DNA of 45,984 nt from positions 1 through 45,984 of IMG/VR virus record IMGVR_UViG_3300033144_008128. One strand, written 5' to 3'. This DNA comes from a virus. The notes beneath the pieces are model-generated. The model was not told the DNA's origin, did no database searches, and saw only the letters and a list, made by a program, of their open reading frames with translations. Both the position numbers and the translations under genes were made by a program. Of the stretch, positions 2,447-32,064 are shown one piece after another (the first letter of the stretch is position 1; every line of letters starts with the position of its first letter).

Positions 2447-2890
2447 ATGGCTGCATCTTCGAACATCAAAATTCTAACCCATCCCACAAGCCTCCTGCAT
2501 GTGATTCAGTATCCTAAGAAAACCAGTGAGGTTCTTGCTCAAGGTGATTTACTTGAAGAGAACGGATCCGGGGCCGAGGCTGTTGACAGCGCGGCTAACA
2601 ATGTTTTCATAGGTATTGCAATGACAGGTTCAGAAGCTAGTGATATCCGTGATATCGCAGTTTGTATTAAGGCAGTTATCAAAATCCAAATGGCTGGTGG
2701 TCAGTCATTGAATTTTGGTAATGCTGCTACCTGGGCTGCAGGTGCAAATGGGACGGATTGGACCTTTACCAAGACCACAACAGAAGGACTTGTTTGGGCT
2801 TTAGAAACAATTGCTACTGCTGGTTCTGGTAAAGCAATGTTAGATGTCGTGGCACTGGAGTCTGGGATCTTTCAAACTGTAACTTCTTAA
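2447..2890 (+). CDS. Capsid decoration protein-like, copy 1
   Basis: 147-residue protein that looks like a phage head decoration/stabilisation protein of the small beta-barrel type (DUF2190-like pattern). It starts MAASSNIKILTHP, contains QGDLLEENGSGAE near residues 32-44 and an FIGIAM strand, and ends with a conserved stretch (WALETIATAGSGKAMLDV). It is clearly paralogous to the next gene, which has the same opening, the same central motif and the same ending but an added Thr/Ser tail that this copy lacks. AGGAGG lies just before the start. It sits between the protease/scaffold and major capsid genes, where decoration genes are normally found. Confidence 0.7.
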   Translation: MAASSNIKILTHPTSLLHVIQYPKKTSEVLAQGDLLEENGSGAEAVDSAANNVFIGIAMTGSEASDIRDIAVCIKAVIKIQMAGGQSLNFGNAATWAAGANGTDWTFTKTTTEGLVWALETIATAGSGKAMLDVVALESGIFQTVTS

Positions 2891-2903
2891 AGGGAGGTCA
2901 TAA

Positions 2904-3407
2904 ATGGCTGTATCTTCGAACATCAAGATCTTGACCTTGCCTGTAAAGTATGTTCATGTGATTGAATATCCTAAGGCATCAAGTGAAGTAATAGCTCAAG
3001 GGGATCTTTTAGAGGAAAATGGAAGTGGAGCTGAGGTTGTTAATGGCGCCGATAATGATATCTTTATTGGTGTTGCTGTTGATGGTTCTACATCTACTCA
3101 ATTAGATCCAATAGCTGTAATGATCAGAGGAATCATCAAAATCCAGATGGGTGCTGGTGAATCAGCTACTTTTGGTCAGGCTTTGAAATACAATGCAGGT
3201 GCAAATGGCACTGATTGGGATTTTGCAACAGCCACAGCTGAAGGTATTATTTGGGCTTTAGAAACACTTGCTACGGCAGGTACAGGTAAAGCATTAGTGG
3301 ATGTGCTTGCTCTTGAAACAGGAATTTTTGAAACGGTAACTGGTACGTCAACATCAACAAGTACGTCAACATCCACTAGTACGTCAACTACAACTACAAC
3401 AGCTTAA
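2904..3407 (+). CDS. Capsid decoration protein-like, copy 2, with Thr/Ser tail
   Basis: 167-residue paralog of the gene just upstream (same MA-SSNIKILT start, the QGDLLEENGSGAE motif, and a WALETLATAGTGKALVDV ending). It differs by a C-terminal tail at residues 148-166 consisting only of Thr and Ser, followed by a final Ala. The tail codons are the same mixture of ACN, TCN and AGT found in the giant linkers 12 kb downstream, so the tail was probably gained by sequence transfer within the phage. If the protein coats the capsid, every decorated site would display a Thr/Ser tail. GGGAGG precedes the start by eight bases. The decoration role is inferred from fold pattern and position. Confidence 0.7.
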   Translation: MAVSSNIKILTLPVKYVHVIEYPKASSEVIAQGDLLEENGSGAEVVNGADNDIFIGVAVDGSTSTQLDPIAVMIRGIIKIQMGAGESATFGQALKYNAGANGTDWDFATATAEGIIWALETLATAGTGKALVDVLALETGIFETVTGTSTSTSTSTSTSTSTTTTTA

Positions 3408-3431: not shown

Positions 3432-4610
3432 ATGAGAAAGGGAACATTAAGAAGTCTCATTGAAGGTTGCAAACTGGAAACCGGTGGGAGTGATGCATCG
3501 GCTCAACTCCTGGCTGCAGATAAACTTCAGGGGCTTTTCGATAAGGGTGATATTACACCTAATGATTTCTCATTCAAGGCCATGTTTGAGGAATTGGTAG
3601 ATCCGGAACATAAGTTCACTATGGAAACGGATGCCAAGGAACTCGCAGAAGCCGTAACAGCCTCTGCATTTCCCACGATTACTGGAGTTGTCATTAATTC
3701 GACAATTATCCCTGCTTATGAATTGGCAGTGGGTCCTTCGGCTCGTTTAGTATCAGAGTCGAATGCTATTAAGACCAGTCGTGAGGAAATAGCAGGTTGG
3801 ACGGCCGGAGGCCAATTTGAAATGAGACCGGAACACACGAGCTACCAGGAAGACGTGATCACAGAGAAATACTGGAGTGTTGATAAGTATGACTTTGGTA
3901 AGATCATCAGTCTTACTCGGGAAGCAATCTTTGATGATCGCTCCGGAGAGTTAATTACCAGGGCTCGTTCGCTTGGTGAAAAAGGTGGTCAATTAAGGGC
4001 CAAAATCATTACACAAACATTCGAAGTTGCTGCTCGTACTGCACAAGGCGAATCAACATCCCAGGCGGCTGTATATAAAGGTACTGCTATAACGGCAGGT
4101 AATTTTTATAATGCAGATCACTCGGCATTGATTGATTCAGCTGGTGTAAATGCTAACCTGGTTACTTCAAATGCTTTAGGTAATGATCAGGCAATTAACA
4201 CCGCTAATACAGTGTTCTCAAAGTTTGTTGATGAGAACGGAGAAACCATTATCATAACTCCTGTAGTTATGGTTTATCCACCTGCCTTACATCAGACTGC
4301 ACAGGAACTATTGTTTGGTACAACCAAACGCTCTATCTCGGCTACACTTGATGAAGGTCACTTGGGTAACATCTGGCAGGGTCGCTTTGATCCTATAGAA
4401 TTACCATTCCTTACCAGTGATACAACCTGGTACATTGGTGCTCCTACAAAACAGATGGTTTGGTTGTGGGTATGGAAACCGGAAACCAAGGTTCAAAATG
4501 CTGATTCAGAATCTGCATTCCATGCACAGATCGTTCTTAGGTATCGGTTCAGTTGGTATGGTGGTTGTGCCCATACTGATTATCGATTTATGGTTAAGAA
4601 CACTGCTTAA
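3432..4610 (+). CDS. Major capsid protein (HK97-like fold)
   Basis: 392-residue probable major head protein. Features that fit are its length, its position after protease/scaffold and decoration genes, a charged helical N-terminus (about 1-70), and the mixed alpha/beta body with a long strand-helix segment (KYWSVDKYDFGKIISLTREA, near 153-172) and DDRSGELITRARSLGEKGG after it, as in Mu-like/HK97-fold head proteins. The C-terminus (LRYRFSWYGGCAHTDYRFMV) is aromatic-rich, as often seen in this group. GGAGG stands a few bases before the start. It carries no Thr/Ser tail. A hairpin follows 24 bases after the stop. Confidence 0.8.
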   Translation: MRKGTLRSLIEGCKLETGGSDASAQLLAADKLQGLFDKGDITPNDFSFKAMFEELVDPEHKFTMETDAKELAEAVTASAFPTITGVVINSTIIPAYELAVGPSARLVSESNAIKTSREEIAGWTAGGQFEMRPEHTSYQEDVITEKYWSVDKYDFGKIISLTREAIFDDRSGELITRARSLGEKGGQLRAKIITQTFEVAARTAQGESTSQAAVYKGTAITAGNFYNADHSALIDSAGVNANLVTSNALGNDQAINTANTVFSKFVDENGETIIITPVVMVYPPALHQTAQELLFGTTKRSISATLDEGHLGNIWQGRFDPIELPFLTSDTTWYIGAPTKQMVWLWVWKPETKVQNADSESAFHAQIVLRYRFSWYGGCAHTDYRFMVKNTA

Positions 4611-5052: not shown

Positions 5053-5089
5053 GAACCATAAAACTTATAAATGTTAAATGGAGGACGAT

Positions 5090-6376
5090 ATGAAACGTAT
5101 TGCTATTTTTACTACATTCACTTCTTCTGATCATGCCTACTCATTAAATAATGTTGTTATAGATCAGATCAAGATGTTTCTACGAGCTGGATATAAACCC
5201 GTGGTATTAGTTGCGGAAGGGTTTAATCCAGTTGGTGTTTATGGGGATAAAGATGTTGAACTAAGACACATCCCTAAAGTCTTCTTGAGTAATGAAGGTA
5301 AATTGCCTGACAATTACTATGAGGATTCGGAAATAATGACGGGATCCCTTAGAGAGTTACTTAAGGATGTAGGGGTTTGTGTCACTCATGATATCATCTA
5401 CCAACCTGCCCACTTAATTCATAATTTAGCATCAAGAAAAGTTGCAGAGGAACGCCCAGATTTAAGATGGCTGCATTGGATACATAGTGCAACTAGCCCC
5501 AATATATTGTGTAATAAAGAAGAGGTTAGGATGTTGATCAAACGCCCTTTTCCTCATGCGTTCATCTGTTATCCAAATCAATATGATAGAACCAGAGTTG
5601 CAACCAATTTCAGATATGAGGAACATTTGGTTAAGTATGTTCCACACCCAATTGATATACCTGAGTACTTAGGCTTCCATGAATATACAAGAGAGTTTGT
5701 TGACAAATACTCTCTTATTGGTGCAGACATGGTGATGGTCTATCCTGTTAGGCTTGATAGGGGAAAGCAGATTCAAATGAATATAAGAAGCATGGCTGCT
5801 TTGAAACGCAGAGATAAGTCAGTAAGATTGATCATTGCTGATTTCCATTCAACTGGCGGAGATAAGGTTACATACAGAGCTCAAATGAAAAAGCAGGGCA
5901 TGGAACTAGGATTGAATGAAAATGAATTGATCTTCACTTCTGATTTCAGAGATGAAACAAAAGGTAGTGTACCTCGGGAAATGATAAGGGATTTATTTAA
6001 TATATCTAATATCTTTCTACTTCCTTCAAGATCTGAGACTTATTCATTGATTGCTCAAGAGGCTTCTATTTGCGGCAACCTTGTTATATTGAATTTTGAT
6101 TTCCCTGCAATGAGAAGTATCTATGGAGAACATGCCTTGTACTTTAAGTTCTCTAGTAATGTTGATGCATTGACTGGATTGGATGGGGAAACCTTAACAG
6201 ACTATAGAGGTGGAGAGAAATACTTTGATGACATGGCCGCTGCAATCTGTTATGAACTAGATAATAATAGAGTTATAGGATTGAGAGATAAACTAAGGAA
6301 AGAAAGAAACCTTGATTATGTTTTTAAGAACCATTTTGAGCCTCTGATCTATGGTCTTGAGGAGGAACTCAAATGA
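5090..6376 (+). CDS. Glycosyltransferase, GT-B fold (GT4-like)
   Basis: 428-residue retaining-type glycosyltransferase of the GT-B fold. The C-terminal half shows the nucleotide-sugar binding region: VYPVRLDRGKQ near 218-227, a central strand (SVRLIIADF), and an E-x7-E motif (Glu316 to Glu324 in SETYSLIAQEAS), followed by a hydrophobic strand. There is no signal peptide or membrane segment, so it should act in the cytoplasm. I chose the ATG at 5090 over one at 5078 because GGAGG at 5080-5084 is well spaced for it. It opens a run of overlapping genes for glycosyl-, sulfo- and methyltransfer. The acceptor is unknown; the phage's own Thr/Ser-rich virion proteins are an attractive candidate. Confidence 0.75.
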   Translation: MKRIAIFTTFTSSDHAYSLNNVVIDQIKMFLRAGYKPVVLVAEGFNPVGVYGDKDVELRHIPKVFLSNEGKLPDNYYEDSEIMTGSLRELLKDVGVCVTHDIIYQPAHLIHNLASRKVAEERPDLRWLHWIHSATSPNILCNKEEVRMLIKRPFPHAFICYPNQYDRTRVATNFRYEEHLVKYVPHPIDIPEYLGFHEYTREFVDKYSLIGADMVMVYPVRLDRGKQIQMNIRSMAALKRRDKSVRLIIADFHSTGGDKVTYRAQMKKQGMELGLNENELIFTSDFRDETKGSVPREMIRDLFNISNIFLLPSRSETYSLIAQEASICGNLVILNFDFPAMRSIYGEHALYFKFSSNVDALTGLDGETLTDYRGGEKYFDDMAAAICYELDNNRVIGLRDKLRKERNLDYVFKNHFEPLIYGLEEELK

Positions 6377-7089
6377 GGATGAGTGTATTAGTTTCTTCTT
6401 TTAATAGATCAAAAACTTTGGCAAGATTAATGAATAGTGTTCTTCGAGATCAAGCCCATGATGATATTGAATTAGTCATAGTAGATGATGCCAGTGTTGA
6501 TGAGACCGAAGAACAAGTTAATTATTTTAAAAAGAACCTGGGATTTAAGAACATCGTCTACTTGAAGAATGACGTGAGAAGTGAGAGAGTCATGTCATAC
6601 AATCGGGCCATGGAGGCCTCTACTGGTGATTGGTTGATTCATATAGGTAGTGATGATGAATTATTTCCCAGGTTTGTTGAGTTCTTTATGTATTGGGTTG
6701 AACAACACCCAGATGCAAAACTCTTCAATTTTGGAAGAGCTGCTATTAATAAACACAATCACAGATCAACGACTGCACCAGGTCAGGCTTTTACTAAAGG
6801 TCAACAATTCAATAGTGGATTGATTTCTGCAGGCCAATTTGCATGGCATAAAAGTATAAGCAAGCAAATCGAATTTCCAGTTGTAAGAGATTGTTACAAG
6901 TTTGCTGATGAATCAAAGATCCCTATTACAGGCATGCTTGATAAGGAGGGCAAACAAATGTATTATAGTAGATTCACAAGAACCTTGGGTAATCCATGGG
7001 GAGAGGACTTCTATATGTTCTGGAGACTGACAAGAAAAAACCAACCGGTTCACATTCCCATCATAGGGATTGTGATTAATGTAAGATGA
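6373..7089 (+). CDS. Glycosyltransferase family 2 (GT-A)
   Basis: 238-residue GT2-type enzyme. The N-terminus has the typical opening strand (MSVLVSSFNRSKTL), the VIVDDASVDET motif (Asp38, Asp39) that binds the nucleotide, and GSDDEL (Asp94, Asp95), the metal-binding DxD-type site. The C-terminal part is short, so this is a compact enzyme with no membrane anchor. The start overlaps the previous stop (ATGA), and GGAGG at 6361-6365 is spaced seven bases away. Sugar donor and acceptor are not predictable. The overlap with both neighbours indicates co-translation within the cassette. Confidence 0.75.
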   Translation: MRMSVLVSSFNRSKTLARLMNSVLRDQAHDDIELVIVDDASVDETEEQVNYFKKNLGFKNIVYLKNDVRSERVMSYNRAMEASTGDWLIHIGSDDELFPRFVEFFMYWVEQHPDAKLFNFGRAAINKHNHRSTTAPGQAFTKGQQFNSGLISAGQFAWHKSISKQIEFPVVRDCYKFADESKIPITGMLDKEGKQMYYSRFTRTLGNPWGEDFYMFWRLTRKNQPVHIPIIGIVINVR

Positions 7090-7892
7090 ATATCCTAGTC
7101 TTTCATGGCGGTGATTTATTTATAAGGCCCTTTCTTGATGGGTGGATCCAGAAGGGGCACACCTTTCGTGCAAGTCCTAACTTCAGTTATTGGACTAATT
7201 GTGAGCCAGATTTATTAGTATTTGAAATGTGTACTGGCAATATTGTACATTACAGTACAAAAGATGAAAGATGGCAGGATGTAAGGGCTGTATGCAGGGC
7301 ACATGGTGTTGGGATAAGGATGAATATCTATAAGGGAGTTGACTGGAGCAAGGTAAGTGACCTTGTATTTGTTACTGATTGGTTGAAGAGACAGACAGAT
7401 GGGTTTGATTTTGGTGATACTAAATTGCATGTAGTTAACAATGGTGTTGATTTAAATAAGTTCACTTTGAAGAAGTCATTCAAGCCCACATATAAACTAG
7501 CCTTTGTAGGACATCCAAGCGGTGCAAAGGGGTATGATGACTTACCTGATATAGTTAAAAGATTTAAGAAGATTGATTCAAGATATAAGCTCTATGAAGC
7601 TAATAAACAGATACCACATGATAAGATGAATGACTGGCTTGAGGATAAAGATTATATCTTGGTTCCATCTCATTATGAAAGTTTTAGCTTTGCAGTAGCT
7701 GAGGCCATGGCCAAGGGGATAAGACCTTTGATAAATCATTGGCCTGGTGCTGAAGAGACATGGGGAGATGAGTTCTTCATTAAAGATTTTAATCTTGAAC
7801 AAGATCCAGAAAGATTCAGAAAGATAATTGAAAATAAGTATAACCTGAAAAAGACTATAAAGAAATTAAATGCGATTTATGGAATTAAATAA
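7086..7892 (+). CDS. Glycosyltransferase, GT-B fold (short)
   Basis: 268-residue glycosyltransferase. The C-terminal domain is recognisable: NNGVDLNKF near 118-126, LAFVGHPSGAKGYDDL near 138-153, and the E-x7-E motif Glu198-Glu206 in HYESFSFAVAEAMAKG, followed by the strand IRPLI. The N-terminal domain is shortened compared with typical enzymes of about 350-400 residues. No signal or membrane segment is present. It overlaps the previous gene by four bases and the next by 23. It probably transfers a sugar in the same pathway as its neighbours; the specificity is unknown. Confidence 0.7.
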   Translation: MNILVFHGGDLFIRPFLDGWIQKGHTFRASPNFSYWTNCEPDLLVFEMCTGNIVHYSTKDERWQDVRAVCRAHGVGIRMNIYKGVDWSKVSDLVFVTDWLKRQTDGFDFGDTKLHVVNNGVDLNKFTLKKSFKPTYKLAFVGHPSGAKGYDDLPDIVKRFKKIDSRYKLYEANKQIPHDKMNDWLEDKDYILVPSHYESFSFAVAEAMAKGIRPLINHWPGAEETWGDEFFIKDFNLEQDPERFRKIIENKYNLKKTIKKLNAIYGIK

Positions 7893-8616
7893 GGCTCCTT
7901 TGATTATAGGAGGTTCCGGTGGCTCGGGTACTAGGGCTGTGACTAAAGTTTTTATGGAAGCGGGCTATTATATGGGTTCTGAGTTACAGGTCAATAGTTT
8001 TGATGACTTACCAATTGCTAGGTTCTTTAATAAGTGGACTAGAATTTACTTGATTGATAACTGTATTCACGAGATAATGCGTAAAGGTTTTGAAAAGTTT
8101 TTAGATGATCACACCAAAGAGTTAGATAAGAACAAGAAATGGGGTTGGAAAGAACCAAGAACAGTCTTCTTTATTCCATTAATATATAGTTATTTCCCAG
8201 ATATGAAGTTCATACATGTAATTAGAGATGGCAGAGATATGGCTTATTCTAAAAATTACAGACAACAAAAGGAATTATTTGACGTCTTCTTTGATGTTAA
8301 GTGGTTCCCTCAGTTTTGCTTTGAAGCTGCAGTCATGTTCTGGGCTAAAACAAATATAAGAACAAAGAAGATGGGATTGAAGATATTGAAAGATAGTTAT
8401 CTTTGCATCAAATTAGAGGATCTGTGTTTTAATACAAATAAGACAATTCAGAAAATGGTAGATTTTATGGGGTTAAGTGGTATAAATATGGAAGACTTAG
8501 TTGATTGCATTGAAATCCCTAAAAGTATTGGTAGATGGAAATCAGATCCTAAATGGGCGGATAAACTACACAACTTAGCATTAGTGGGATTGAAGGAATT
8601 CGGATATGACATTTGA
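7870..8616 (+). CDS. Sulfotransferase family protein
   Basis: 248-residue PAPS-dependent sulfotransferase-like protein, expected to move sulfate from PAPS to a hydroxyl, here probably on a glycan. Visible motifs are the 5'-phosphosulfate loop IIGGSGGSGTRAV (residues 12-24), WGWKEPRT near 91-98, and the 3'-phosphate site HVIRDGRDMAYS with Arg119 and Ser127. These are the standard PAPS-binding landmarks. The start at 7870 overlaps the previous gene by 23 bases and has no strong ribosome site; an ATG at 7879 is an alternative. A second, more divergent sulfotransferase lies 4 kb downstream in the cassette. Confidence 0.75.
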   Translation: MRFMELNKAPLIIGGSGGSGTRAVTKVFMEAGYYMGSELQVNSFDDLPIARFFNKWTRIYLIDNCIHEIMRKGFEKFLDDHTKELDKNKKWGWKEPRTVFFIPLIYSYFPDMKFIHVIRDGRDMAYSKNYRQQKELFDVFFDVKWFPQFCFEAAVMFWAKTNIRTKKMGLKILKDSYLCIKLEDLCFNTNKTIQKMVDFMGLSGINMEDLVDCIEIPKSIGRWKSDPKWADKLHNLALVGLKEFGYDI

Positions 8617-9217
8617 TGAAAGAGTAAAATTAATTGAAAGCTGGGGTTCTGACAATTTAGTAAGATTTGGTGGTATTAAGAACGGTGGTATCTGGCTTCA
8701 ACAAGAACCAAGAGAGATGGCCAACCTCATTGGGTTTCTATTGTATAAGGATCTCAAGGATATAAATTATTTAGAGATTGGTTGCGCTGCTGGAGGTTCT
8801 ACTTATGTAATGAACTATTTCTTGGATTTAAAAAATATCATATTGATTGATAACAATAAACATCCAAGATATCGTAGACTAAAGAAGATATTAAAAGGTA
8901 TCAAATACAATAAATGGGTGGGTGACTCACAATCTAAGCAAGCACGAGAGTTCGTGTTGAATCTAAATTTACAATTTGATATAATATTCATTGATTCTGA
9001 CCACACTTATCATGGAGTCAAAAATGATACATTAGCTTATCTACCCTTTTTAAAAGAAGATGGATTCATAGTCTTTCATGATGTGGAGGGGGTTGCTGAT
9101 GTTAAAAGATGGATTAGAAAGTGTGTTCAAGATAAGACTATGAATATTAAACATGTAACTAATTTTATTCAAAACAGAAATGGACTAGGAGTAGGTGTCT
9201 ACAGGAAAGAAAAATAA
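8606..9217 (+). CDS. SAM-dependent methyltransferase (class I, Methyltransf_24-like)
   Basis: 203-residue class I methyltransferase. Motif I is YLEIGCAAGGS (residues 55-65), an acidic strand end follows (ILIDNN, about 79-84), and FIDSDHTYHGVKND (about 128-141) with LKEDGFIVFHDV matches the Methyltransf_24/cephalosporin hydroxylase-like group, whose members often methylate sugar hydroxyls in polysaccharide or glycan clusters. It overlaps the preceding sulfotransferase gene by 11 bases and shares a base with the next gene (TAATG). In this cassette it probably caps or modifies glycans; the substrate is inferred from context only. Confidence 0.75.
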   Translation: MTFDERVKLIESWGSDNLVRFGGIKNGGIWLQQEPREMANLIGFLLYKDLKDINYLEIGCAAGGSTYVMNYFLDLKNIILIDNNKHPRYRRLKKILKGIKYNKWVGDSQSKQAREFVLNLNLQFDIIFIDSDHTYHGVKNDTLAYLPFLKEDGFIVFHDVEGVADVKRWIRKCVQDKTMNIKHVTNFIQNRNGLGVGVYRKEK

Positions 9218-9807
9218 TGCATTTAACTTGTATGAAATGGCTTGAATATTGTAGAGATAAGTATCCCAAACATTTTAATGATTGTAGTGTTCTTGAGATA
9301 GGTAGCTTAAATATAAATGGCTCTGTTAGACCTTATTTTAAGGGGTGTGAACACATAGGACTTGATTGGAGACCTGGAAATAATGTTGATATTGTAGCAT
9401 TAGCACATGAAATTAGATTTGAGAAGAAATTTAAAACTCTTATATCATGCTCAATGTTAGAACATGACCCTTATTGGGAGAAGAGCTTATTAAATATGAT
9501 AGATCTGTTGGCAGAAGATGGAGGGTTATTCTTGTCTTGGGGTGGAATGAATTGTCCTCCACATTTTCTTGAGACTGCACCAGATGGAAAGTTTCATGCA
9601 TTGAAAGCCAGTTTGGTGTTTGATTATTTGACAAATAAGGGACTTTACGTTCATGAGTTTGGAAGGGAAGATTCTTTCATGAAATACATGAGACTATGGG
9701 ATATTGATTCAAGAGTAGCAATTAGCTGTTTCAACTTGATTGGATTTAAAAATAAGAACTACCCAAAAACTGAACAATTATTCTTTAGAGCTAATGAGGA
9801 TGACTAA
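9217..9807 (+). CDS. SAM-dependent methyltransferase-like protein
   Basis: 196-residue Rossmann-type methyltransferase-like protein. SVLEIGSLNINGS (about 24-36) stands for the SAM-binding motif, though the usual Gly-x-Gly is loosened, and HIGLDWRPGNNVDIV (about 46-60) gives the acidic residue after strand two. ISCSMLEHDPYWEKSL (about 81-96) and LLAEDGGLFLSWGG fit the later core strands and helices, as in the Methyltransf_11-like group. It is coupled by TAATG overlaps to both neighbours. The role is presumably glycan methylation or a related modification, but the altered motif leaves activity uncertain. Confidence 0.65.
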   Translation: MHLTCMKWLEYCRDKYPKHFNDCSVLEIGSLNINGSVRPYFKGCEHIGLDWRPGNNVDIVALAHEIRFEKKFKTLISCSMLEHDPYWEKSLLNMIDLLAEDGGLFLSWGGMNCPPHFLETAPDGKFHALKASLVFDYLTNKGLYVHEFGREDSFMKYMRLWDIDSRVAISCFNLIGFKNKNYPKTEQLFFRANEDD

Positions 9808-10475
9808 TGAAAAACATTACAGGATTAACTGTTTTCTATAAGACTCCTCATCTCATTGATATTTCTTTAAGATCTCTTAGGAAATACTATCCTGACATGC
9901 CTTTGATCTTAGTGAACAATTCAGTTGAAGATGATGAGTGTACTGAAGCTCTAAGAAGTTTCGTCATAGAAGACAAAAAGTCTACACTGGTTCAACTAGA
10001 TATGAATTATGGACATGGACCTGGATTGAATAGAGGCATGGAACGAATAACAACTGATTATGTTTATATCTTTGATTCTGATTCAGAGATAATAAAAGAG
10101 AACCTACTTGAGAGTCTGGCTGCCGAAATGACCTCTAAAACCTATGGGGTGGGGTTTACTAGATTAACTTCAAGGGGTGGATCCCATAGAGATGGGGGAA
10201 GTTTAGATGATCCCGATGTTATGACCTATCTACATCCATTGGCTTGTTTGATTTCAATGAATCAATATAAGAAGTTTCCGGCATTCAGTTCGGGTGGAGC
10301 TCCATTCAATAAAACCATGAGTGCTATAAAGGACTCGGGTATTTCTGATATTTTAATAAAGTATTTCCCTGTTATTGGGCTTAACAGGGGAAGAATAAAT
10401 GCAAATTATATAAAACACCATGGAGGGAGTACAAGAGCTAGGTATGGTATTTGTAGTCCATACATTGGAGTATAA
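9807..10475 (+). CDS. Glycosyltransferase family 2-like, copy A of a tandem pair
   Basis: 222-residue GT-A type protein. It opens with ITGLTVFYKTPHLIDISL, has LILVNNSVEDDE (nucleotide-binding strand and acidic pair, about 33-44), a GHGPGLNRGME helix, and YIFDSDSEI with the metal-binding Asp90-x-Asp92. It aligns along its whole length with the next gene (TVFYKTP/TVYRTP openings, NNSV/DNSV, YGHG/EGHG, FDSD/MDSD, and a shared THKSG/KHHGGSTRA ending), so the two are a tandem duplication. Enzymes of this length without membrane helices are soluble. The start overlaps the previous stop. Confidence 0.7.
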   Translation: MKNITGLTVFYKTPHLIDISLRSLRKYYPDMPLILVNNSVEDDECTEALRSFVIEDKKSTLVQLDMNYGHGPGLNRGMERITTDYVYIFDSDSEIIKENLLESLAAEMTSKTYGVGFTRLTSRGGSHRDGGSLDDPDVMTYLHPLACLISMNQYKKFPAFSSGGAPFNKTMSAIKDSGISDILIKYFPVIGLNRGRINANYIKHHGGSTRARYGICSPYIGV

Positions 10476-11147
10476 ATGTTACAGATAACAGGAATAACAA
10501 CTGTTTATAGGACTCCTGATTTGTTGAAAGATTGTTATGAATCATTCAGGGAGTTTTATCCTGAGCTTCCATTTATTATAATTGATAATTCGGTTGATGA
10601 CTCATGTCTATCATTAACTGATAAGTGGGTTGAAGAAGGTCATAATATTACTGTAGTTAATAATGAGAAGAATGAAGGACATGGGGATGGTATGCATCAA
10701 GCAATTGCTTTGTCTAATACACCTTATCTATTTATAATGGATTCAGATGTTGTAATTAGAAGACCTAGATTATTAGAAGACATGATGACATATATGATCT
10801 CTTCAATTTATGGAGTAGGTTGGTTATTGAATCTTGACAGAGGAGGTAGAAATGTTCCTGATCTTTTTACGGGGGATATAATCAGATATTTATATCCTGC
10901 CTTCATGCTTCTCAATAGAAGTTTGTATTATGAGTTTCCTAAATTTACTAGGTTTGGTTTACCACCTTTAAGGGCAATGCAGGAGATACATGATGCAGGC
11001 CTGTCTAATAAAATATTAGTTGATTTTCCAGTCAGAGTATATGTGACTCATAAATCTGGTGCTACTCGTAGTCAATATGGAGATTGTGAAGATATAGTTG
11101 ATGGCTTTAAAGGTATAAAAGGTGATATGAATAACCCAAATATTTAA
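10476..11147 (+). CDS. Glycosyltransferase family 2-like, copy B of a tandem pair
   Basis: 223-residue paralog of the preceding gene, starting immediately after its stop codon. The GT-A landmarks are FIIIDNSVDDS (about 33-43), NEGHGDGMHQAIA and FIMDSDVVI with Asp89-x-Asp91. The two copies have diverged strongly outside these motifs, so they probably add different sugars or recognise different acceptors. It is the last gene before a promoter that drives the peptidase gene, so the first part of the cassette may form one transcription unit. Confidence 0.7.
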   Translation: MLQITGITTVYRTPDLLKDCYESFREFYPELPFIIIDNSVDDSCLSLTDKWVEEGHNITVVNNEKNEGHGDGMHQAIALSNTPYLFIMDSDVVIRRPRLLEDMMTYMISSIYGVGWLLNLDRGGRNVPDLFTGDIIRYLYPAFMLLNRSLYYEFPKFTRFGLPPLRAMQEIHDAGLSNKILVDFPVRVYVTHKSGATRSQYGDCEDIVDGFKGIKGDMNNPNI

Positions 11148-11155
11148 AAATATGA

Positions 11156-11184
11156 TTGACCCACAATGAAAAAATTCTTATTAT
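11156..11184 (+). promoter_or_regulatory. Sigma70-type promoter before peptidase gene
   Basis: TTGACC at 11156-11161, a 17-base spacer, then TATTAT at 11179-11184; each element matches five of six consensus bases. Transcription would start near 11191, which is downstream of the ATG at 11166 and upstream of the ATG at 11211. This supports the shorter peptidase start. Confidence 0.6.
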
Positions 11185-11210
11185 TAGTCAATAAGGCAAG
11201 GGGTGTAAAA

Positions 11211-12047
11211 ATGAAAGACTTCAGTAAATATAAATTAGATGTTGAACCTTCACCTCTCGACTCAAGAGATTTTAAAGCTGAGGCTATATTTTCTAAACAT
11301 GCTGCTGTACCTGCTACTCTAGACTTACGTAGTGACCTTCAGAAAATAAGAGATCAGGGTTCTCAAGGAACTTGTGTTGCACAGGTTGGTGCTTGCATGA
11401 AGGAGTGGCAGGAACTTCAAGACATTGGTTTTAAACAATATATGTCACCTCAATTCATTTACAATAATAGATCTACTAGTGGAAGTGGGATGTACCCAAG
11501 AGATTTAATGAGTATACTTAGAAATATGGGTTCATGTCCAGAGAGTATGTTCCCTTATGGTTCAGAGGGAAAACCTCTATTGAATGTTTATAAAGAAGCT
11601 AAGAATCATATAATACAACACTACGCAAGAGTTAATATTATTGAAGGTCTTAAAACTGCACTATCAAAAAACGGCCCTTGCTATGGTACATTCCCAGTTT
11701 ATAACTATGGGCCAAGTATGTGGAAGCCTTCATTCAATGGGCCAGTACTAGGTTATCATGCTATGACCTTTGTGGGATATAATTCAAAAGGGTTTATTAT
11801 AAGGAACTCATGGGGTGATGACTGGAATGACAAAGGTTATACAGTCTTTCCTTATGAAGACTGGGGTCTTCAAGTTGAATGCTGGACTTGCATTGATGCA
11901 GAATCAGGTGAAGAAGACTTCAAAGATGGGTGGAGAGAATTTTGGTATTATAAATGGCGATGGGTACGAGAGCATTGGAAAACATTAATCTATGCTGTAC
12001 CTGTTTTAATCTTTCTTGGATACATACTTATAGATAAGGTGTTCTAA
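11211..12047 (+). CDS. Papain-like (C1A) cysteine peptidase with C-terminal membrane anchor
   Basis: 278-residue papain-fold peptidase. The active-site pieces are in the right order and spacing: Gln49 and Cys55 in RDQGSQGTCVAQ, His183 in GYHAMTFVGYN, and Asn199 in IRNSWGDDWNDKGY. The N-terminal segment (PSPLDSRD, LDLRSDLQKI) resembles the short lead-in of bacterial and phage C1A enzymes. There is no signal peptide, but residues about 258-275 (LIYAVPVLIFLGYILI) form a membrane segment after an aromatic, positively charged stretch, giving a C-tail-anchored enzyme with its catalytic domain probably in the cytoplasm. AGGGG seven bases before 11211 and the promoter at 11156-11184 favour this start over 11166. 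The target is unknown: virion protein processing or host envelope proteins. Confidence 0.75.
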   Translation: MKDFSKYKLDVEPSPLDSRDFKAEAIFSKHAAVPATLDLRSDLQKIRDQGSQGTCVAQVGACMKEWQELQDIGFKQYMSPQFIYNNRSTSGSGMYPRDLMSILRNMGSCPESMFPYGSEGKPLLNVYKEAKNHIIQHYARVNIIEGLKTALSKNGPCYGTFPVYNYGPSMWKPSFNGPVLGYHAMTFVGYNSKGFIIRNSWGDDWNDKGYTVFPYEDWGLQVECWTCIDAESGEEDFKDGWREFWYYKWRWVREHWKTLIYAVPVLIFLGYILIDKVF

Positions 12048-12754
12048 TGACTGATTTCTTTAAAGTTTATGGACTTCCAAGAACAGGGACAAACTTTACA
12101 AGAGTTATGATTTCAGACAACTTTGAAATAACACACATTAGGTTTTTTGGATATAAACATGCTGCTCCTTTTTATCAAATTGATTGGACGGGGAAGGATT
12201 GGGATAGACCATTTGGGGAAGAGAGACCACATAGAGTAGCTAAGGCCGAAGAGATAAGAGAAGAAGTGGAAGAAGCTGTAAGAAATGATAGATTCTTTTT
12301 TGTCATGACTGTTAAGAACCCTTATGCTTGGTATGTTAGTAATCTTAATAGTTTAGTAGATTCAAGACTAAGGATTATGAGTAATTGGATGAATTGGTAT
12401 AATGAACGTAATTGGGAGTATATTCATTATCTTGAGAGTAAACCTTCAGTCTCATATATAATAAGATACGAAGATTATTATAACAATATAGAGTCTGCGG
12501 TGAGTCAAATTGGTGATAAATTTGGTCTGGTAAGAATGTCCTCAGTTTTTAAGATAATTGATGAAGTAGTAGGACCTAAAATGTTATTGACTCCTCCTCC
12601 AGATAAAAATGGTATTTATTACCACAACTGGGAGTGGTATCAAAATAGATCATATTTAAAGTTATTGGATAAAAGATGTATTAGTCATATTAGCAATAAT
12701 GTTGATAAAGACATAATGAAATTTTTTAAATATGAGGTCTTGAATGAAATGTGA
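12047..12754 (+). CDS. Sulfotransferase-like P-loop protein
   Basis: 235-residue protein with sulfotransferase-superfamily landmarks. YGLPRTGTNFTRVM (residues 8-21) resembles the 5'-phosphosulfate binding loop, and FVMTVKNPYAWYVSNL (85-100) sits where the 3'-phosphate site lies, with Lys in place of the usual Arg. YIIRYEDYYNN (about 147-157) matches the late strand found in the family. It is clearly divergent from the other sulfotransferase in this cassette. It overlaps the peptidase gene (TAATG) and the next glycosyltransferase by 11 bases. Sulfation of a glycan is the likely role. A related P-loop kinase-like function is possible. Confidence 0.6.
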   Translation: MTDFFKVYGLPRTGTNFTRVMISDNFEITHIRFFGYKHAAPFYQIDWTGKDWDRPFGEERPHRVAKAEEIREEVEEAVRNDRFFFVMTVKNPYAWYVSNLNSLVDSRLRIMSNWMNWYNERNWEYIHYLESKPSVSYIIRYEDYYNNIESAVSQIGDKFGLVRMSSVFKIIDEVVGPKMLLTPPPDKNGIYYHNWEWYQNRSYLKLLDKRCISHISNNVDKDIMKFFKYEVLNEM

Positions 12755-13652
12755 TAATTTATCAATAGTGGTTCCCACTGCAGGGAATCCAGGCTTAGCC
12801 CGAAGTTTGGAGACATATAGAAAATATGCTCCAGAGGCAAAAGTAATAGTAGTAGATCAATTACCAAGTGGAAGTCTTACACATGAACAGGTTGATGACC
12901 TAACTGATGCTTATCTCTGGGTTTATAGGACTCTAGGTTTTTCTAAGGCAGTGAACATGGGAATCGAGATTGCTGATACTGACTTCATCTGTGTTGCTAA
13001 TGATGATGTTGAATTAGTCAATGAAAGATGGTGGCTTACAATTCTTACAAGATTTGCAAGGATGCCAGATGTTGGTGCTATCAATCCGGCTTCAATTAAG
13101 GGGTACAGAGAAGAATCAGATCAGCTGCCTTGTAGCTGCGGAGTTGAATTGATGGAAGTCAATGATAATTGCCCCCAATGTAGGTCTTATAAAGAGGAGT
13201 ATACTGAAGAGGATTATGATTATCTCATGACTGAACGAGTATTAAAGAATAGCCCATTGAATCCAGTAAGACCTGAAAGTTTTTGTGATGGCATTATGAC
13301 TTGGTTTACAGTCTTCAGAAAAGAAACACTGGAGATGATAAAAAATAATGGCTGTTATTATGATGAACGATTCTATCCTGGTGGTGGTGAAGACTATGAT
13401 CTTATGTGTAGGATGTATGATCTAAAATATGAAGATAAGAACGCACCACATCGGGCAATTGGAGTTAATGATTCTTGGGCCTATCATCACTGGTTTGGTA
13501 CAAGAATAAAGAATCCACCTGTAGTAATTGAAGCATTAAGGTGGAATCAATTAGATGTAACTGAAGGAAGTAAATATGGAGACAATTGGAATCTGTGGGG
13601 TAGAAAAGACCCAAGTATTCCTATGCCTCCTTGTACAAAAATTCCGTTGTAG
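12744..13652 (+). CDS. Glycosyltransferase family 2 with inserted Cys4 motif
   Basis: 302-residue GT2-type enzyme. It has LSIVVPTAGNPGLARSLETY at the start, VIVVDQLPSG for the nucleotide strand, CVANDDVELV with Asp87 and Asp88 at the metal site, and a late DGIMTWFTVFRKE / PGGGEDYDLMCRMYD block with the ED catalytic-type motif. Between the two halves, at residues 130-146, four cysteines in a C-x-C then C-x2-C pattern look like a zinc ribbon, which is unusual for GT2. The C-terminus (HHWFGTRIKN) carries a His pair often seen near the active site. It is the last enzyme of the cassette and is followed nine bases later by a virion-like gene. Confidence 0.75.
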   Translation: MKCDNLSIVVPTAGNPGLARSLETYRKYAPEAKVIVVDQLPSGSLTHEQVDDLTDAYLWVYRTLGFSKAVNMGIEIADTDFICVANDDVELVNERWWLTILTRFARMPDVGAINPASIKGYREESDQLPCSCGVELMEVNDNCPQCRSYKEEYTEEDYDYLMTERVLKNSPLNPVRPESFCDGIMTWFTVFRKETLEMIKNNGCYYDERFYPGGGEDYDLMCRMYDLKYEDKNAPHRAIGVNDSWAYHHWFGTRIKNPPVVIEALRWNQLDVTEGSKYGDNWNLWGRKDPSIPMPPCTKIPL

Positions 13653-15499: not shown

Positions 15500-18400
15500 A
15501 TGGCCGATTGGGATGTAGGAGCCCATGAATATTTAAGTGAAACAACAACTAGTACGTCTACTAGTACTTCTACATCTACGTCCACTAGTACTTCAACTAC
15601 AACAACTTCAACTACTACATCTACGTCTACAACTACTACATCTACCAGTACAACTACGACATCAACCAGTACGACATCTACAAGTACGTCAACTACAACA
15701 ACTAGTACATCTACATCAACTACTACTACCTTAATACCAGATGATCCAGAGTGGATTGAAAGATATGAGAATGGATCTGGATATGATAATTCAGATTGGC
15801 AAACTGCTGATGTTGACGGTGGCTCTACTTATGACCCAAATCAAGATGTATCCAGTGTATCTGGTGCTCCTGGGGATTGGGGAAATGAGTGCTTAAAAGT
15901 TGATGTAGTTAGTGGCGAAGACGCTAGAAATAGAGCTATTATTTATGACCCCGTTTATCAGAGTGTTGTTTATTTAAAAATTGAAATTATAGTTAATAGT
16001 GAATCTTTATCTAATGATACACTTAGGCGTTTTCTAAGTTTAAGCACTTCTGATTCTTTTTCTGTTGTAGAATTAAGGATACATAAACAGTCTGACAATG
16101 TATATCTTAAATGTACCATATCACATGATGGCTCTACTTGGAATGGTTATCTTGGTCTTAATCCAATTTCACTTGATACAAAGTATAGAGTTGAAGTAAA
16201 ATATGATGCTGATAATGAGAAATGGGGTTGGAGAATAGATGGTGTAAATCAGCCAAATGACATAGACTCTGTTGACCCAATTATTTCAGATGGCACATTA
16301 ACAACAGGTAAAAAAGATAACATTCGACAATTATATACTGGTTCATTTTCCGCCGAGAGTGGTGGTGCTGTAACTTATTATATTGATAATATAGGGGCAG
16401 ATACTCGTGGATGGATAGGCGATCAGGGTACAGGAACAACAACCTCTACTTCTAGTTCTACATCTACAACAACTACTTCCACTTCAACTACTTCCACTTC
16501 AACTAGTACAACTACTACCAGCACTAGTACGACAACTACATCTACTTCAACCAGTACAAGCACGTCTACATCAACTAGCACGACATCTACATCTACTTCA
16601 TCCACCAGTACAACTACAACTACGGTTCCTGGGTCTTGGGACGTAGGAGCCCATGAATATTTAAGTCCAACTACGACATCTACATCAACAAGTACAACAA
16701 CTACAAGTACGACAACTACGTCTACATCAACTAGTACGACATCTACATCAACTAGCACTAGCACGACAACTACGTCTACATCGACTAGTACGACAACTAC
16801 GTCTACATCGACTACTAGTACTTCGACATCAACTAGCACTAGTACGACAACTACGTCTACATCAACTAGTACGACATCTACATCAACTAGCACTAGTACG
16901 ACAACTACGTCTACATCGACTAGTACGACATCAACTTCAACAAGCACTAGTACGACATCAACTAGCACTAGCACGACAACTACATCAACTAGCACTAGTA
17001 CGACAACTACGTCTACATCAACTAGTACGACATCTACATCAACTAGCACTAGTACGACAACTACGTCTACATCGACTAGTACGACAACTACGTCTACATC
17101 GACTACTAGTACTTCGACATCAACCAGCACGACCACTACCAGTACTAGTACGACAACTACGTCTACTAGCACTAGCACGACAACTACGTCTACCAGTACT
17201 AGTACGACAACTACTTCAACATCAACTAGCACGACAACTACTTCAACATCAACTAGCACTAGTACGACAACTACTTCAACATCAACTAGCACGACAACTA
17301 CTTCAACATCAACTAGTACGACAACTACGTCTACTAGCACTAGCACGACAACTACTTCAACATCAACTTCAAGTAGTACAACAAGTACGTCAACTACTAC
17401 CACTTTGATTCCAGACGACCCAGAGTGGATTGAAAGATATGAAAACGGTTCTGGATATGATCAGTCTTGGAATACAGCTCAAGTTGGTGGTTCTTCTACT
17501 TATGACCCAGACTACCTAACCTCTAGTGTTTCTGGTGCTCCCGCTGATTGGGGAAATGAGTGTCTTAAAGTAGAAGCTTTAGATGGTGAGGCAGCTAACA
17601 ATTATTCCATTGTTTACAATTCTCCTTATGAAGAGATTGTTTATGCTAAGGCAGAGATTATAATTGATAGTTATAGTCTTCCTGATCAATATACTGGAAG
17701 AAGGTTATTTACAATATCAAATTATGACTGGAACGGTTTGTTTGAGTTAAGGTTATATAACTTCGGTGGTTCTATTCATTTTCAGGCTTATGTTTACAGG
17801 GATGGTGCTAGTTATAATGCCTACTATAGCCTTAATACGGTTTCAACTGACACTCCATATAGAATTGAAGTTAGATATGATGCCACGAATAATAAGTGGG
17901 CTTGGAGAATTGATGGTGTCAATCAACCCAATGACCAAGATACATCCGATCCAGTATCGTCAGATGGAACACTGTTACCTGGTCGTAAAGATGAAGTTAG
18001 ATCAATTAATGTTGGTTCTCGCACAGGGGAGTCTGGTGGAGATGTTCTATATTATTTTGATAATATAGCTTTAGATACTCGTGGTTGGATAGGTGATGAG
18101 GGAACAGGAACAACCACATCAACTTCAAGTTCGACAACTAGTACATCGACAAGTACCACTTCTACGTCTACATCCTCAACTAGCACATCTACTACAACTA
18201 CCTCTACCAGTACAACGACGACAAGCACTAGTACGACAACTACATCAACGTCAACGTCAACCAGTACTTCAACCAGTACTACATCAACCAGTACGACCAC
18301 TACATCAACTAGTACATCGACTACCACTACATCAACTACTAGTACATCTACAACGACTACAACATTGATACCAGAAAGATGTGAAAAGTATGAAAGTAGC

Positions 18401-21400
18401 GGAGGATATGATTTAACAGGTTGGATAGAATCAATTGAGTCTGGTTCTAGTTATGACCCTAATGTTGCTACTTCTGGAGTTGCTGGAACTTCAGTAAGTT
18501 GGGGTAATGAATGCCTAGAGGTTGACGTCGCTGGAAGTGAAGATGCTTATGCTTATAATGATATATTTGGTGAAAGTGAATCAATTACATATTGGCGATT
18601 TGACCTAATTATAAACGCTGAGTCATTGGCAGATGGAGAACGAAGAAGGTTATTTACATCTGCAGGTTTGTCTAACTCAGCCTGGCAAGTTGGTATCTAT
18701 CAGAACTCAGGAAGTCTTTATCTAGAGTTAAATTCCCGTCATGATGGTACTGACAACTATTATCTAAGTTTAAACTCAATTTCATTAGATACCGAATATA
18801 CAATAGAAGTTAAGTGGGATGCTACTAATAATAAATGGGCTTGGCGGATTGATAGTGTTGATCAGCCCAATGATCAGGACTCAGTTGACCCTATTACTTC
18901 TGAAGGTAATTTAACAAGTAGTCATCCTACTAGTTGTAGGTATATTTATGTTGGAGGCAGGGCCTGGGACTCAAAAGCTGTTAAGGCTTATATTGATAAT
19001 GTTGCAGGAGATACTGATGACTGGATAGAGTCAGGATGTACAGGTACAACTACTTCCACTTCTACTACATCAACAAGTACGTCGACTACTACTTCAACAA
19101 GTACAACAACCAGTACAAGTACGACTACTACATCGACCAGTACAACTACTACATCAACATCCACTTCAACTAGTACATCGACATCTACAACAACCACATC
19201 TACTTCAACTTCTACAACGACGACTTCAACAAGCACTACAACGACGTCGACCAGTACTACTTCCACATCAACATCTACTTCTACAACTACGACCAGTACA
19301 AGTACAACGACGACATCAACCAGTACAAGTACGACGACGACTAGCACATCAACAAGTACGACTACAACTAGTACGTCCACTAGTACTTCAACATCAACAA
19401 GTACTTCGACATCTACATCTACCACAACTACGTCTACATCTACCACAACTACGTCTACATCAACTACTACAACTAGCACCAGTAGTAGTACAACTACCAG
19501 TACTTCAACTACTACCACTTTAATACCCGATGACCCTGAGTGGATTGAAAGATATGAAAACAGTTCTGGTTATGATGAGACATGGGATACTGCACTTGTA
19601 GGAGGGACTTCTACTTATGATCCGAATCAAGCTACCTCTGGTGTTATTGGAGCTCCAGTTGACTGGGGAAATGAATGCCTGAAAGTTGATGCCACTAGTG
19701 GTGAATGGGCAGCTAATAAAGCCTTTCCATTTGGAGTAGTATCAGGTACATCTGTTGCTTATCTAAAACTTGATTTTATTTTAGATGATGGATCTGATTT
19801 ACAGAATAATGAGATAAGAAGATTATTTGAGATCAATGATGATGATAGTAGTCAAATAGTTGAAGCTTATGTTGCTAGAGATGGCAGTGGTAATTTAAAG
19901 ATAAGACTTGATTCTTATCATGATGGCAATCAGAATACTTATTGGTCAATACCGACCCTCTTAGAAGATACTGAATATAAGATAGAACTCCGATGGGATA
20001 TTATTGAAGATAAGTGGGGTTGGAGAATTGACGGAATCAATCAACCTAATGATAGTGATGACAGTGATCCTGTAGATTCTGATGGTATACTATCTGGTGG
20101 AGTAATTGGAGTTTATGAGTTGTGGGTTGGTTGCTCAGCTTTTGGAGAGAGTCCTGCCGATGTTATTTATTATGTTGACAATATTGGAGCAGATACAAGG
20201 GGTTGGATAGGAGATGTAGGAGTTGGGACTACTACATCTACTTCTAGTTCAACTACTACAACAAGTACAACCACGACTAGCACTAGTACTTCAACTACGA
20301 CAACTTCCACTTCTACATCAACTACGACTACTAGTACCTCAACTACATCAACCAGTACTTCTACATCAACTACGACAACGTCGACTAGTACAACCTCAAC
20401 TAGTACTTCAACATCCACTACTACAACCTCAACCTCAACATCGACTACGACAACCAGTACAACAACTACATCTACTTCAACTACTACGACTAGCACTAGT
20501 ACGTCTACATCAACTACTACGACCAGCACTAGTACGACTTCAACCTCTACATCGACTAGCACAACAACTACATCGACTAGCACTAGTACAACTACAACTA
20601 GTACTTCGACTACATCAACTAGTACCTCTACTTCTACTACAACAACCTCGACTAGTACTTCTACTACGACAACATCTACTTCGACTACTACGACCAGTAC
20701 ATCTACAAGTACAACTACGACTAGCACCAGCACCTCAACTACATCTACATCGACTAGTACATCAACTACAACTACTTCGACATCAACAAGCACCAGTACC
20801 ACAACGACGTCTACTTCAACCAGTACAACTACATCTACTTCAACTACATCTACTTCAACCAGTACCAGTACTTCAACTACAACGACTAGCACTAGTACCT
20901 CAACTACTACTACCTCAACCAGTACAAGTACAACTACGACCTCGACTTCAACTAGCACATCAACAACTACTACATCTACATCAACTACGTCAACATCAAC
21001 AAGCACCAGCACCAGTACAACGACAACAAGCACAAGCACAAGCACATCTACTACCAGTACTTCTACATCAACTACGACTACCAGTACTTCTACATCAACT
21101 ACGACGTCTTCAACAAGTACCAGCAGCAGTACAACTACGACCAGTACCTCTACATCAACAAGTACTACCACGACCAGTACCTCAACAACTACGACATCAA
21201 CAAGCACAACGACCAGCACATCAACTACTTCAACATCAACAAGTACAACAACTACTTCGACAAGTACTACGACAACATCAACATCATCAACTACTACGAC
21301 ACCAATTTACTTTGGGATAAAGATTTGTAGGATAGATATAAGCAGCAATATGAAACAATATATAACAGCAAGTGACACTGCTGATCAAGAAATTGAGTTT

Positions 21401-26681: not shown

Positions 26682-27057
26682 AGCACCTGAACTCTTCATA
26701 GAAGGTATGGAGGTAATAATCAAGAGAGACCTTGAGAAACACAAGGTTCTCTTGATTAGAAGTAACCAAGAGCTTCTATCATATAGGAATGCTAGAAGTC
26801 ATGAAGTTAAAAGAAAAAAGTATTACAAGTCCCTTATTGGTGGTGAAAAATATAATGATGATTCTTTAAGAAGGTCAATGAATGACATTGTTATAAATAT
26901 AAGACACTTCAGTGATAAAGTTAAGTTGTCTGAAGATGCAATAAAACATCATACTCTAATTGTTGATACTCTTTCAAAACAATTAGATGATCAAAACAAG
27001 GGACTTGATGCACTAGCTAAATATCGCAGAGATCATCAAAATGCCGCTAACAATTGA
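26671..27057 (+). CDS. Helical/coiled-coil protein (128 aa)
   Basis: 128-residue, strongly helical, Lys/Glu/Asp-rich protein (RRSMNDIVINIRHFSDKVKL, LIVDTLSKQLDDQNKGLDAL) with no recognisable family. I chose the ATG at 26671, which overlaps the preceding gene by 11 bases; a TTG at 26656 in the same frame is less likely. It overlaps the next gene by 17 bases. Small coiled-coil proteins between large tail proteins often act as assembly chaperones or spacers; that is inference. Confidence 0.6.
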   Translation: MDRKAPELFIEGMEVIIKRDLEKHKVLLIRSNQELLSYRNARSHEVKRKKYYKSLIGGEKYNDDSLRRSMNDIVINIRHFSDKVKLSEDAIKHHTLIVDTLSKQLDDQNKGLDALAKYRRDHQNAANN

Positions 27058-28225
27058 TTATGGTAATGAACTAATAAAGATCACATCACCCACTACTAAT
27101 GTTGATGGACAGGTCTTACATGATTTTATTGAAGACAATATGGCAACCCCCGAGGGTTCATTGTATGCTGATATCATACAACCTGAAGGGAAAATAGAAG
27201 ACCCTTCTAATCCCGGAGTTTTCTCCCAGATAATTATTATTTTGAACTCTCCTTGGCAGGTTCAATTTTGGGGAGGTAGTGGTTATACAAGAATTTATGG
27301 AGCTAAGCTTGTGGGGGGTTTAGCAGATCAACCCATGAAGGCTACAGGAGCAGCTGGAGATATAACTGTACTTGAAAGCCCTGTTGATGGTCTTACTGTA
27401 GTTTCTGGTTCAGGGGTAACTGAACAAGATAAGACTGATATTACTGAAGGAGTCTGGGCTGTTCTCACATCTGCTAGTGAAGCCACTGGTACTTTCGGGG
27501 AGTTGATGAAAGTTCTGGTTGGTATGAATCAACAGAACTATAGAATACGTGATCAAGTCTATGCTAACTTTGGTACTATCAGAAGGATGACTTCTGCTAA
27601 AATTAGATTATATGAGGGCGCTGTTGATACCATAGTTGATCAGAATAATTATAAGCAATACAATTTAACGGCAAATTATAATGGTAGTGGTGATTGCACA
27701 GCATACTATGTTGTAGAAGGTGAGATTGAATGGTATGCACCAGTATCAGTACAAGTCTCTATTGGTTCAATTGAATCAGGAGAGTTGTCTGATGTTTATG
27801 CAGATGATGGAAATAGAATAGTTGTAGCTGAGACTACTAGTAGTCCTGCATGGATGCTTGATTTTTATTTTACAAGTGTACCTGACTCAGCTTTGCAGTT
27901 GACATTCAATGGTCATTACAATGGAAATCCCACACATGATGTGAAACTTTATCAATATAATTATAACACTACTGTCTGGGATGCCGTCACAATTGAGGAT
28001 AATGATTTTCCAAGTAATGCAGTAGATCAAGATTTAACATTTGAACTGCTATCACCAAATTCAGATTACATAAATGGAGGTGAATTAAGATTAAGAATGA
28101 GTCATGATTCACCTGGTAACCCAGTTCACAGAAGTAATATTGATCTATTCAAATTGGATTATTATATTACTACTACAACATCAACAAGTACATCAACAAG
28201 TACAACGTCTACAACTACTACTTAG
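27041..28225 (+). CDS. Virion structural protein with C-terminal Thr/Ser tag (394 aa)
   Basis: 394-residue protein. Residues about 1-110 form a globular N-terminal domain with aromatic strands (QIIIILNSPWQVQFWGGSGY), typical of phage minor tail proteins. Residues about 125-175 form a helix region, and about 225-376 a beta-sandwich-like domain (WMLDFYFTSVPDSALQLTFN, GELRLRMSH, LFKLDYYI). Residues 377-394 are 18 consecutive Thr/Ser, the same tag as on the decoration and tube proteins, ending exactly at the stop. No signal peptide is present. It lies upstream of the head-tail adaptor. The likely role is a surface-exposed virion part; the tag suggests a shared fate with the other tagged proteins. 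Confidence 0.7.
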   Translation: MPLTIDYGNELIKITSPTTNVDGQVLHDFIEDNMATPEGSLYADIIQPEGKIEDPSNPGVFSQIIIILNSPWQVQFWGGSGYTRIYGAKLVGGLADQPMKATGAAGDITVLESPVDGLTVVSGSGVTEQDKTDITEGVWAVLTSASEATGTFGELMKVLVGMNQQNYRIRDQVYANFGTIRRMTSAKIRLYEGAVDTIVDQNNYKQYNLTANYNGSGDCTAYYVVEGEIEWYAPVSVQVSIGSIESGELSDVYADDGNRIVVAETTSSPAWMLDFYFTSVPDSALQLTFNGHYNGNPTHDVKLYQYNYNTTVWDAVTIEDNDFPSNAVDQDLTFELLSPNSDYINGGELRLRMSHDSPGNPVHRSNIDLFKLDYYITTTTSTSTSTSTTSTTTT

Positions 28226-30638: not shown

Positions 30639-30656
30639 TAGTTCTAAACTCAACAG
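30551..30656 (+). repeat. Exact 52-bp tandem duplication causing a frameshift
   Basis: Bases 30551-30604 are identical to 30603-30656, a direct repeat with a 52-base period and no mismatch. Because 52 is not a multiple of three, the second copy is read in another frame, moving the stop from 30732 to 30638. The perfect identity indicates a recent event or an assembly artefact. Confidence 0.9.
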
Positions 30657-32063: not shown

Positions 32064-32064
32064 T

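Follow-up and report, generated by a model that had tools for sequence, protein, structure and literature searches.

The window analysed here is a stretch of 45,984 bases, the uncultured virus record IMGVR_UViG_3300033144_008128, and represents a fragment of a tailed phage with head genes on the left and tail genes on the right. Between the capsid gene and the genes of giant appendage proteins with threonine/serine (Thr/Ser) tracts lies a cassette of eleven genes on the same (+) strand (5078-13652), the first of which encodes a GT4-like glycosyltransferase (GT). Across many related phages this GT4 is found almost exclusively where virion proteins carry Thr/Ser tails; hence the phage probably decorates its own virion with sugars. 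As judged from the sequences, the cassette is likely to serve a phage-encoded, cytoplasmic O-glycosylation of virion Thr/Ser tracts, in which the GT4 would take the first step and enzymes from the variable interior of the cassette would build up the glycan further. An earlier note on this DNA had proposed such a self-glycosylation of the virion and had suggested a survey of other phage genomes for co-occurrence of tracts and cassette. The survey was carried out, and its outcome supports the proposal.

Co-occurrence of the GT4 with Thr/Ser tails

Relatives of the GT4 were collected in viral scans, which cover the best 80 loci; many of the records are fragments. Thr/Ser tracts of at least 12 residues were searched within 10 kb, and 119 loci obtained with an unrelated peptide pattern served as controls. 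Tracts occurred at 62 of the 80 GT4 loci and at none of the 119 control loci (Fisher 1e-35); this and the following Fisher value ignore kinship and are to be taken as effect sizes. Seven exceptions were read further, and five of these have tracts elsewhere on the contig. Clustering of the GT4s at 60% identity gave 34 clusters, of which 30 had tracts. The GT4 loci have a common order, namely capsid gene, one to three genes for small tailed proteins and GT4, with a median distance of 838 bases between tract and GT4. GT2 genes over the cut-off were present in 46/50 GT4 records versus 3/50 control records.

A second, independent survey started from the capsid family to which the sister phages belong. 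Among loci with at least 3 kb downstream of the capsid gene, 44 had both GT4 and tails, seven had neither, two had tails only and none had the GT4 only. The corresponding counts were 25/6/2/0 for capsid clusters at 80% and 31/5/2/0 for loci with at least 5 kb downstream (Fisher 4e-5). One of the loci with tails only, L431, is a short contig whose end carries cassette genes. Two loci with related capsids, L428 (10000-20885) and L430 (7766-12785), have GT2 and methyltransferase-like genes after the capsid gene and possess neither tails nor this GT4. The tails are therefore tracked by this particular GT4 rather than by GT cassettes at large, and the idea that tracts accompany any GT cassette was rejected.

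The GT4 gene (5078-6376; PF00534, 1e-9) begins with an ATG at 5078; the start at 5090 given in the earlier note is an in-frame ATG. An alignment shows an EX7E motif with E320 and E328 invariant across five relatives. The predicted fold is GT-B, and a structure search returned MshA (3c48, E 1.5e-13) as nearest match and also BshA; according to this model the protein has the hallmarks of the GT4 superfamily, a GT-B fold and EX7E. The family has 100 viral relatives versus 6 in a collection with one genome per species (84,980 species), and the query found no relatives among named phages. The GT4 of the window shares 46-48% identity with GT4s from phages whose capsid proteins are matched no better than about 1e-6. 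Its occurrence follows that of the tails, which makes it the foremost candidate within the cassette for adding the first sugar, and on balance we favour it as the initiator on Thr/Ser. Two loci with GT4 homologues and Thr/Ser tracts (L226, L227) are on contigs binned as Deltaproteobacteria/Desulfobacteraceae; this may hint at a host, the contigs being possibly prophage or mis-binned phage.

Several observations speak against the proposed glycosylation of the virion. The GT4 model has a moderate confidence (predicted local distance difference test, pLDDT, of 76) and resembles GT4s that act on small molecules, but no known peptide GT. Thirteen of the 80 GT4 loci are in records without a tract in the portion read, mostly short fragments. 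No tract accompanies the cassette genes of the 31-kb record G062, nor was one found in 36.9 kb around the GT4 that is closest to that of the window among the loci read (L142/G051, 57%), a contig that ends inside the cassette. The loci share descent, most GT4 loci belong to one capsid family, and the group without GT4 and tails comprises seven loci only, three of which have the most distant capsids (42-43% identity). Finally, L424 (11065-16961), the other locus with tails only, lacks a cassette within 6 kb, and its contig of 19.9 kb has no GT2. Its glycan cassette may have been lost recently or relocated.

In another reading the tracts would be flexible, unmodified linkers, and the cassette would remodel O-antigen or capsule on the host surface against superinfection. 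In its favour, Thr/Ser linkers also occur where GTs do not. With a degenerate DNA pattern for Thr/Ser, 119 viral stretches were retrieved, and 50 of these records were examined for GT2: 36 tract-bearing records, many with pure poly-Thr, had no match; GT2 genes were found in 14, with multi-gene clusters strongest where tracts have the mixed STSTTTT style of the window. Two cassette genes are also annotated in PHROG as GtrB-like O-antigen conversion, and serotype conversion is common among phage GTs. However, tracts are far more frequent at GT4 loci than in the background, GT4 presence tracks tails within one capsid family, and the place of the cassette, after the capsid and before the tail genes, is constant. 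Furthermore, its GTs have no membrane anchor; with regard to gtrABC O-antigen conversion, we found no GtrA flippase gene, nor any flippase-like gene, in the cassette and no membrane helices in the GTs. Taking both sides together, remodelling of the host surface is an unlikely function of the cassette.

The close linkage of tracts and GT4 could also arise by hitchhiking. In this case virion proteins would be glycosylated at sites other than the tracts, and tracts and cassette would be co-inherited in one structural gene island. The two do adjoin each other, one capsid family accounts for most GT4 loci, and the capsid and tail proteins of mycobacteriophage Che8 have no Thr/Ser tract even though phages of its kind are reported to be glycosylated. 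Yet the pairing holds in 14 of 18 GT4 clusters outside the main capsid family, and L428 and L430 retain GT genes with neither tails nor GT4. In addition the tails sit on different carrier domains: in the window on a cement protein, in G009 and further phages on small proteins of other kinds. We regard glycosylation restricted to other sites as very improbable, and return to the tracts as the acceptors of the proposed pathway.

Candidate acceptors and cassette genes

The window has 18 sense-strand Thr/Ser runs of at least 8 residues with 1331 residues (865 Thr and 466 Ser); no run of this length was found on the antisense strand of the window. Most runs are in two giant proteins, where they link repeated domains. 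The codon usage of the tracts matches that of the other genes in the window, and TSTTTTST, a peptide found 87 times, is written in 76 different DNA spellings. This diversity of spellings rules out expansion of a DNA microsatellite as origin of the tracts. Together with the ordinary codon usage it means that selection acts on the amino acids; the tracts are a product of selection at the protein level.

The main candidate acceptor is the giant protein 15500-21640 (+), which has 972 residues in Thr/Ser runs between repeated domains; the second giant protein (32050-39549, +) has 303 such residues and a C-terminal tract. A candidate acceptor on the head is the phage cement (head decoration) protein (2904-3407, +; PF09956, 26.4 bits versus a cut-off of 24) with a C-terminal Thr/Ser tail of 19 residues (3345-3401). 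On the tail, the tail-tube protein (39611-40708, +; PF18906 Phage_tube_2, 2.8e-13) ends in a short Thr/Ser tail (tract 40676-40705). Acceptors on both head and tail had been anticipated, and the two positions support the proposed pathway, since capsid and tail tube are the virion sites that are glycosylated in mycobacteriophages. A structural-region protein (27041-28225, +) has a C-terminal tail of 18 residues.

The cement gene is preceded by a paralogue without a Thr/Ser tail (2447-2890, +; PF09956 Phage_cement_2, E 7e-4, below the cut-off); the tandem (2447-3407), with a tail on the second protein only, is a built-in control pair. The major capsid protein (3432-4610, +; phrog_4523, E 5e-16) follows, and the tape measure starts at 42673. 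Queries with the capsid and cement proteins of the window returned no relatives among viral contigs or named phages. A small frame closes with two exact tandem copies of a 52-base unit (30551-30656), which may be a recent duplication or an assembly artefact.

The eleven cassette genes encode six GTs, a pair of methyltransferases, one clear sulfotransferase, another recognised at the motif level, and a papain-type peptidase. Ten of these genes had been listed before; all ten are open frames on the + strand, mostly overlapping by 1-23 bases, and Pfam and PHROG matches back the six GTs (two GT-B, four GT2) and the two methyltransferases. The GT4 is followed by a GT2 (6373-7089; PF00535, 3e-20) with homologues in sister cassettes, and by a second GT-B enzyme (7086-7892; PF00534, 5e-7) with homologues in G031, G016 and G011. 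Next come two S-adenosylmethionine methyltransferases, behind a sulfotransferase described below: a Methyltransf_24 protein (8606-9217; PF13578, 1e-15), which has homologues in L212, L220 and others, and a second protein (9217-9807; phrog_32762, 1e-19) with relatives in L150, L151 and L155. They precede two further GT2 genes (9807-10475, PF00535, 3e-14; 10476-11147, PF00535, 3e-15). The last gene encodes a GT2 with a GGGEDYD motif (12744-13652; PF00535, 3e-6), whose profile matches chondroitin synthase 2z86 (1.5e-6); its predicted structure was discarded at a pLDDT of 49.

Both sulfotransferases named in the earlier note are present as genes, but only one is clear-cut (7870-8616; PF13469, Sulfotransfer_3, 1e-12, with PF00685 also over the cut-off). 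It has relatives in L156 and L224 and, as a query, none among named phages. The second (12047-12754) is a probable sulfotransferase at the motif level: its PF13469 match (6e-4) is below the cut-off, and GLPRTGTN and VKNPYAWYVS, read by eye, resemble both motifs for binding 3'-phosphoadenosine 5'-phosphosulfate. The gene missed in that inventory encodes a papain-family (C1) cysteine peptidase (11166-12047; PF00112, 3e-12; PDB 3ois, 3e-20). A homologue of the peptidase occurs at the GT4 loci L213/L214, and Lak megaphages and phage THSA-485A have distant homologues. Hydropathy revealed no membrane-like segment in the ten other cassette proteins (maximum Kyte-Doolittle 19-mer < 1.2), as had been stated for them, while the peptidase has a C-terminal hydrophobic, membrane-like helix. 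The lack of membrane segments in the GTs, methyltransferases and sulfotransferases supports their proposed action on virion proteins.

Gene maps were made in full for four sister phages (G009, G011, G016 and G031), all from records with the mixed STSTTTT style. They share one gene order. After the capsid come small proteins with C-terminal Thr/Ser tails, a homologue of the first GT (1e-118 to 1e-133 versus the window) and a variable interior; the cassette ends with a homologue of the last GT2, and giant Thr/Ser proteins follow. Their capsids match that of the window weakly (about 1e-4 to 1e-8). The interior is not the same: the sisters have a sugar-nucleotide dehydrogenase, an epimerase and a DegT aminotransferase, the window has sulfotransferases. 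The first gene, and in the sisters also the last, is conserved and the interior is swapped; the glycan thus probably differs from phage to phage. Sulfotransferases were found in only 4/50 GT4 records. Sulfation, which the earlier note had made part of the system, was therefore rejected as a core property and appears to be an option taken by some phages. Another GT4-bearing record with 11 GT2 matches, L362 (G089:75000-93901), encodes very large proteins with periodic repeats of the STSTSSTTTSSSTSTT type.

The gene content also bears on whether the cassette glycosylates phage DNA at hypermodified bases, as GTs of other phages do according to work cited in PMC12619734. No gene for modified-base synthesis was recognised in the 46 kb, although the contig is a fragment and others could lie outside it. 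The sulfo- and methyltransferases and the sugar-nucleotide genes of the sisters suit an oligosaccharide better, and the linkage to Thr/Ser tails would be left unexplained. We consequently give DNA as the substrate hardly any credence, and compare the cassette below as a system for virion proteins.

Comparison with known glycosylation systems

Phage-encoded GTs modify capsid and tail-tube proteins in mycobacteriophages, and glycans are reported at the C-termini of both proteins; in cluster O an O-methyltransferase lies beside the GTs (PMC11600133, PMC12619734, citing Freeman et al. 2023, Cell Host Microbe 31:1216). In view of these reports the statement in the earlier note that no such system had been described was too strong, although the GTs are unrelated and Che8 has no tracts. 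Like these phages, the window encodes GTs together with methyltransferases. The Che8 GTs gp108-110 gave no profile match with the two conserved GTs of the window, and the best BLAST hit (E 0.016) was a tract protein that is not a GT. Hence the cassette would work like the mycobacteriophage system, but with other enzymes. Moreover, the Che8 GT genes do not follow the capsid gene but occupy the right genome end, the C-termini of the Che8 capsid and tail proteins have no Thr/Ser tract, and only the window has more than 1000 potential acceptor residues, about ten enzymes and sulfotransferases. The cassette thus appears to be an unrelated and much denser variant of the virion glycosylation already known in mycobacteriophages.

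The logic is closer to that of the islands for serine-rich repeat adhesins (SRRP; Fap1, GspB) of Gram-positive bacteria. There a cytoplasmic initiator, the two-protein complex Gtf1-Gtf2 (GtfA-GtfB), acts on Ser and downstream GTs extend the glycan stepwise; the Fap1 cluster has six genes (PMC5207161). In the window, too, enzyme genes adjoin genes of long Thr/Ser-rich proteins, and the last GT2 has a weak profile match (2e-4) to 5hea, a GT annotated as GalT1. The SRRP product is a cell-wall adhesin, whereas the product proposed here is a virion. No GtfB-like partner was found by Pfam or PDB sequence match, the GT4 being followed by GT2 or sugar-nucleotide genes. Among the annotated frames of the window there are no accessory Sec genes and no cell-wall anchored Ser-rich protein, but phage structural genes instead.

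Chloroviruses and giant viruses also encode their own capsid glycosylation; these are viruses of eukaryotes, with sites and enzymes that differ from those of the window. To our knowledge none of them carries Thr/Ser tracts. A description of the present gene combination was not found in the literature searched, with subscription papers mostly outside its coverage.

Proposed pathway and its meaning

In the proposed pathway the GT4 would attach the first sugar to Thr/Ser in the tails and linkers of the cement, tail-tube and giant appendage proteins. The remaining GTs would lengthen the glycan stepwise by one sugar each, and methyl- and sulfotransferases would cap it, before or during assembly of the particle. 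The same kind of Thr/Ser scaffold would then bear a different glycan in each phage. From the gene content we infer the glycosylation of the tracts, the order of the enzymes, the identity of the sugars and the benefit, which may be shielding, adhesion, spacing, stability or defence evasion; mucus binding and immune masking, put forward in the earlier note, would be further candidates.

It seems somewhat more probable than the opposite that these phages are members of a widespread, undescribed class with 'mucin-like' virions, in which a phage-enriched GT4 initiates dense O-glycans and swappable enzymes, sometimes with sulfation, finish them. If this is true, related particles wear different sugar coats. 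Virion glycosylation in phages would then reach beyond a few mycobacteriophages and take in many uncultured phages, with a defined acceptor in the Thr/Ser tails, a candidate initiator that can be tested on peptides and a modular finishing cassette. The GT4 family may supply Thr/Ser glycosyltransferases that consist of a single protein, and a family that contains phages with and without Thr/Ser tails offers a natural comparison for the function of a sugar coat.

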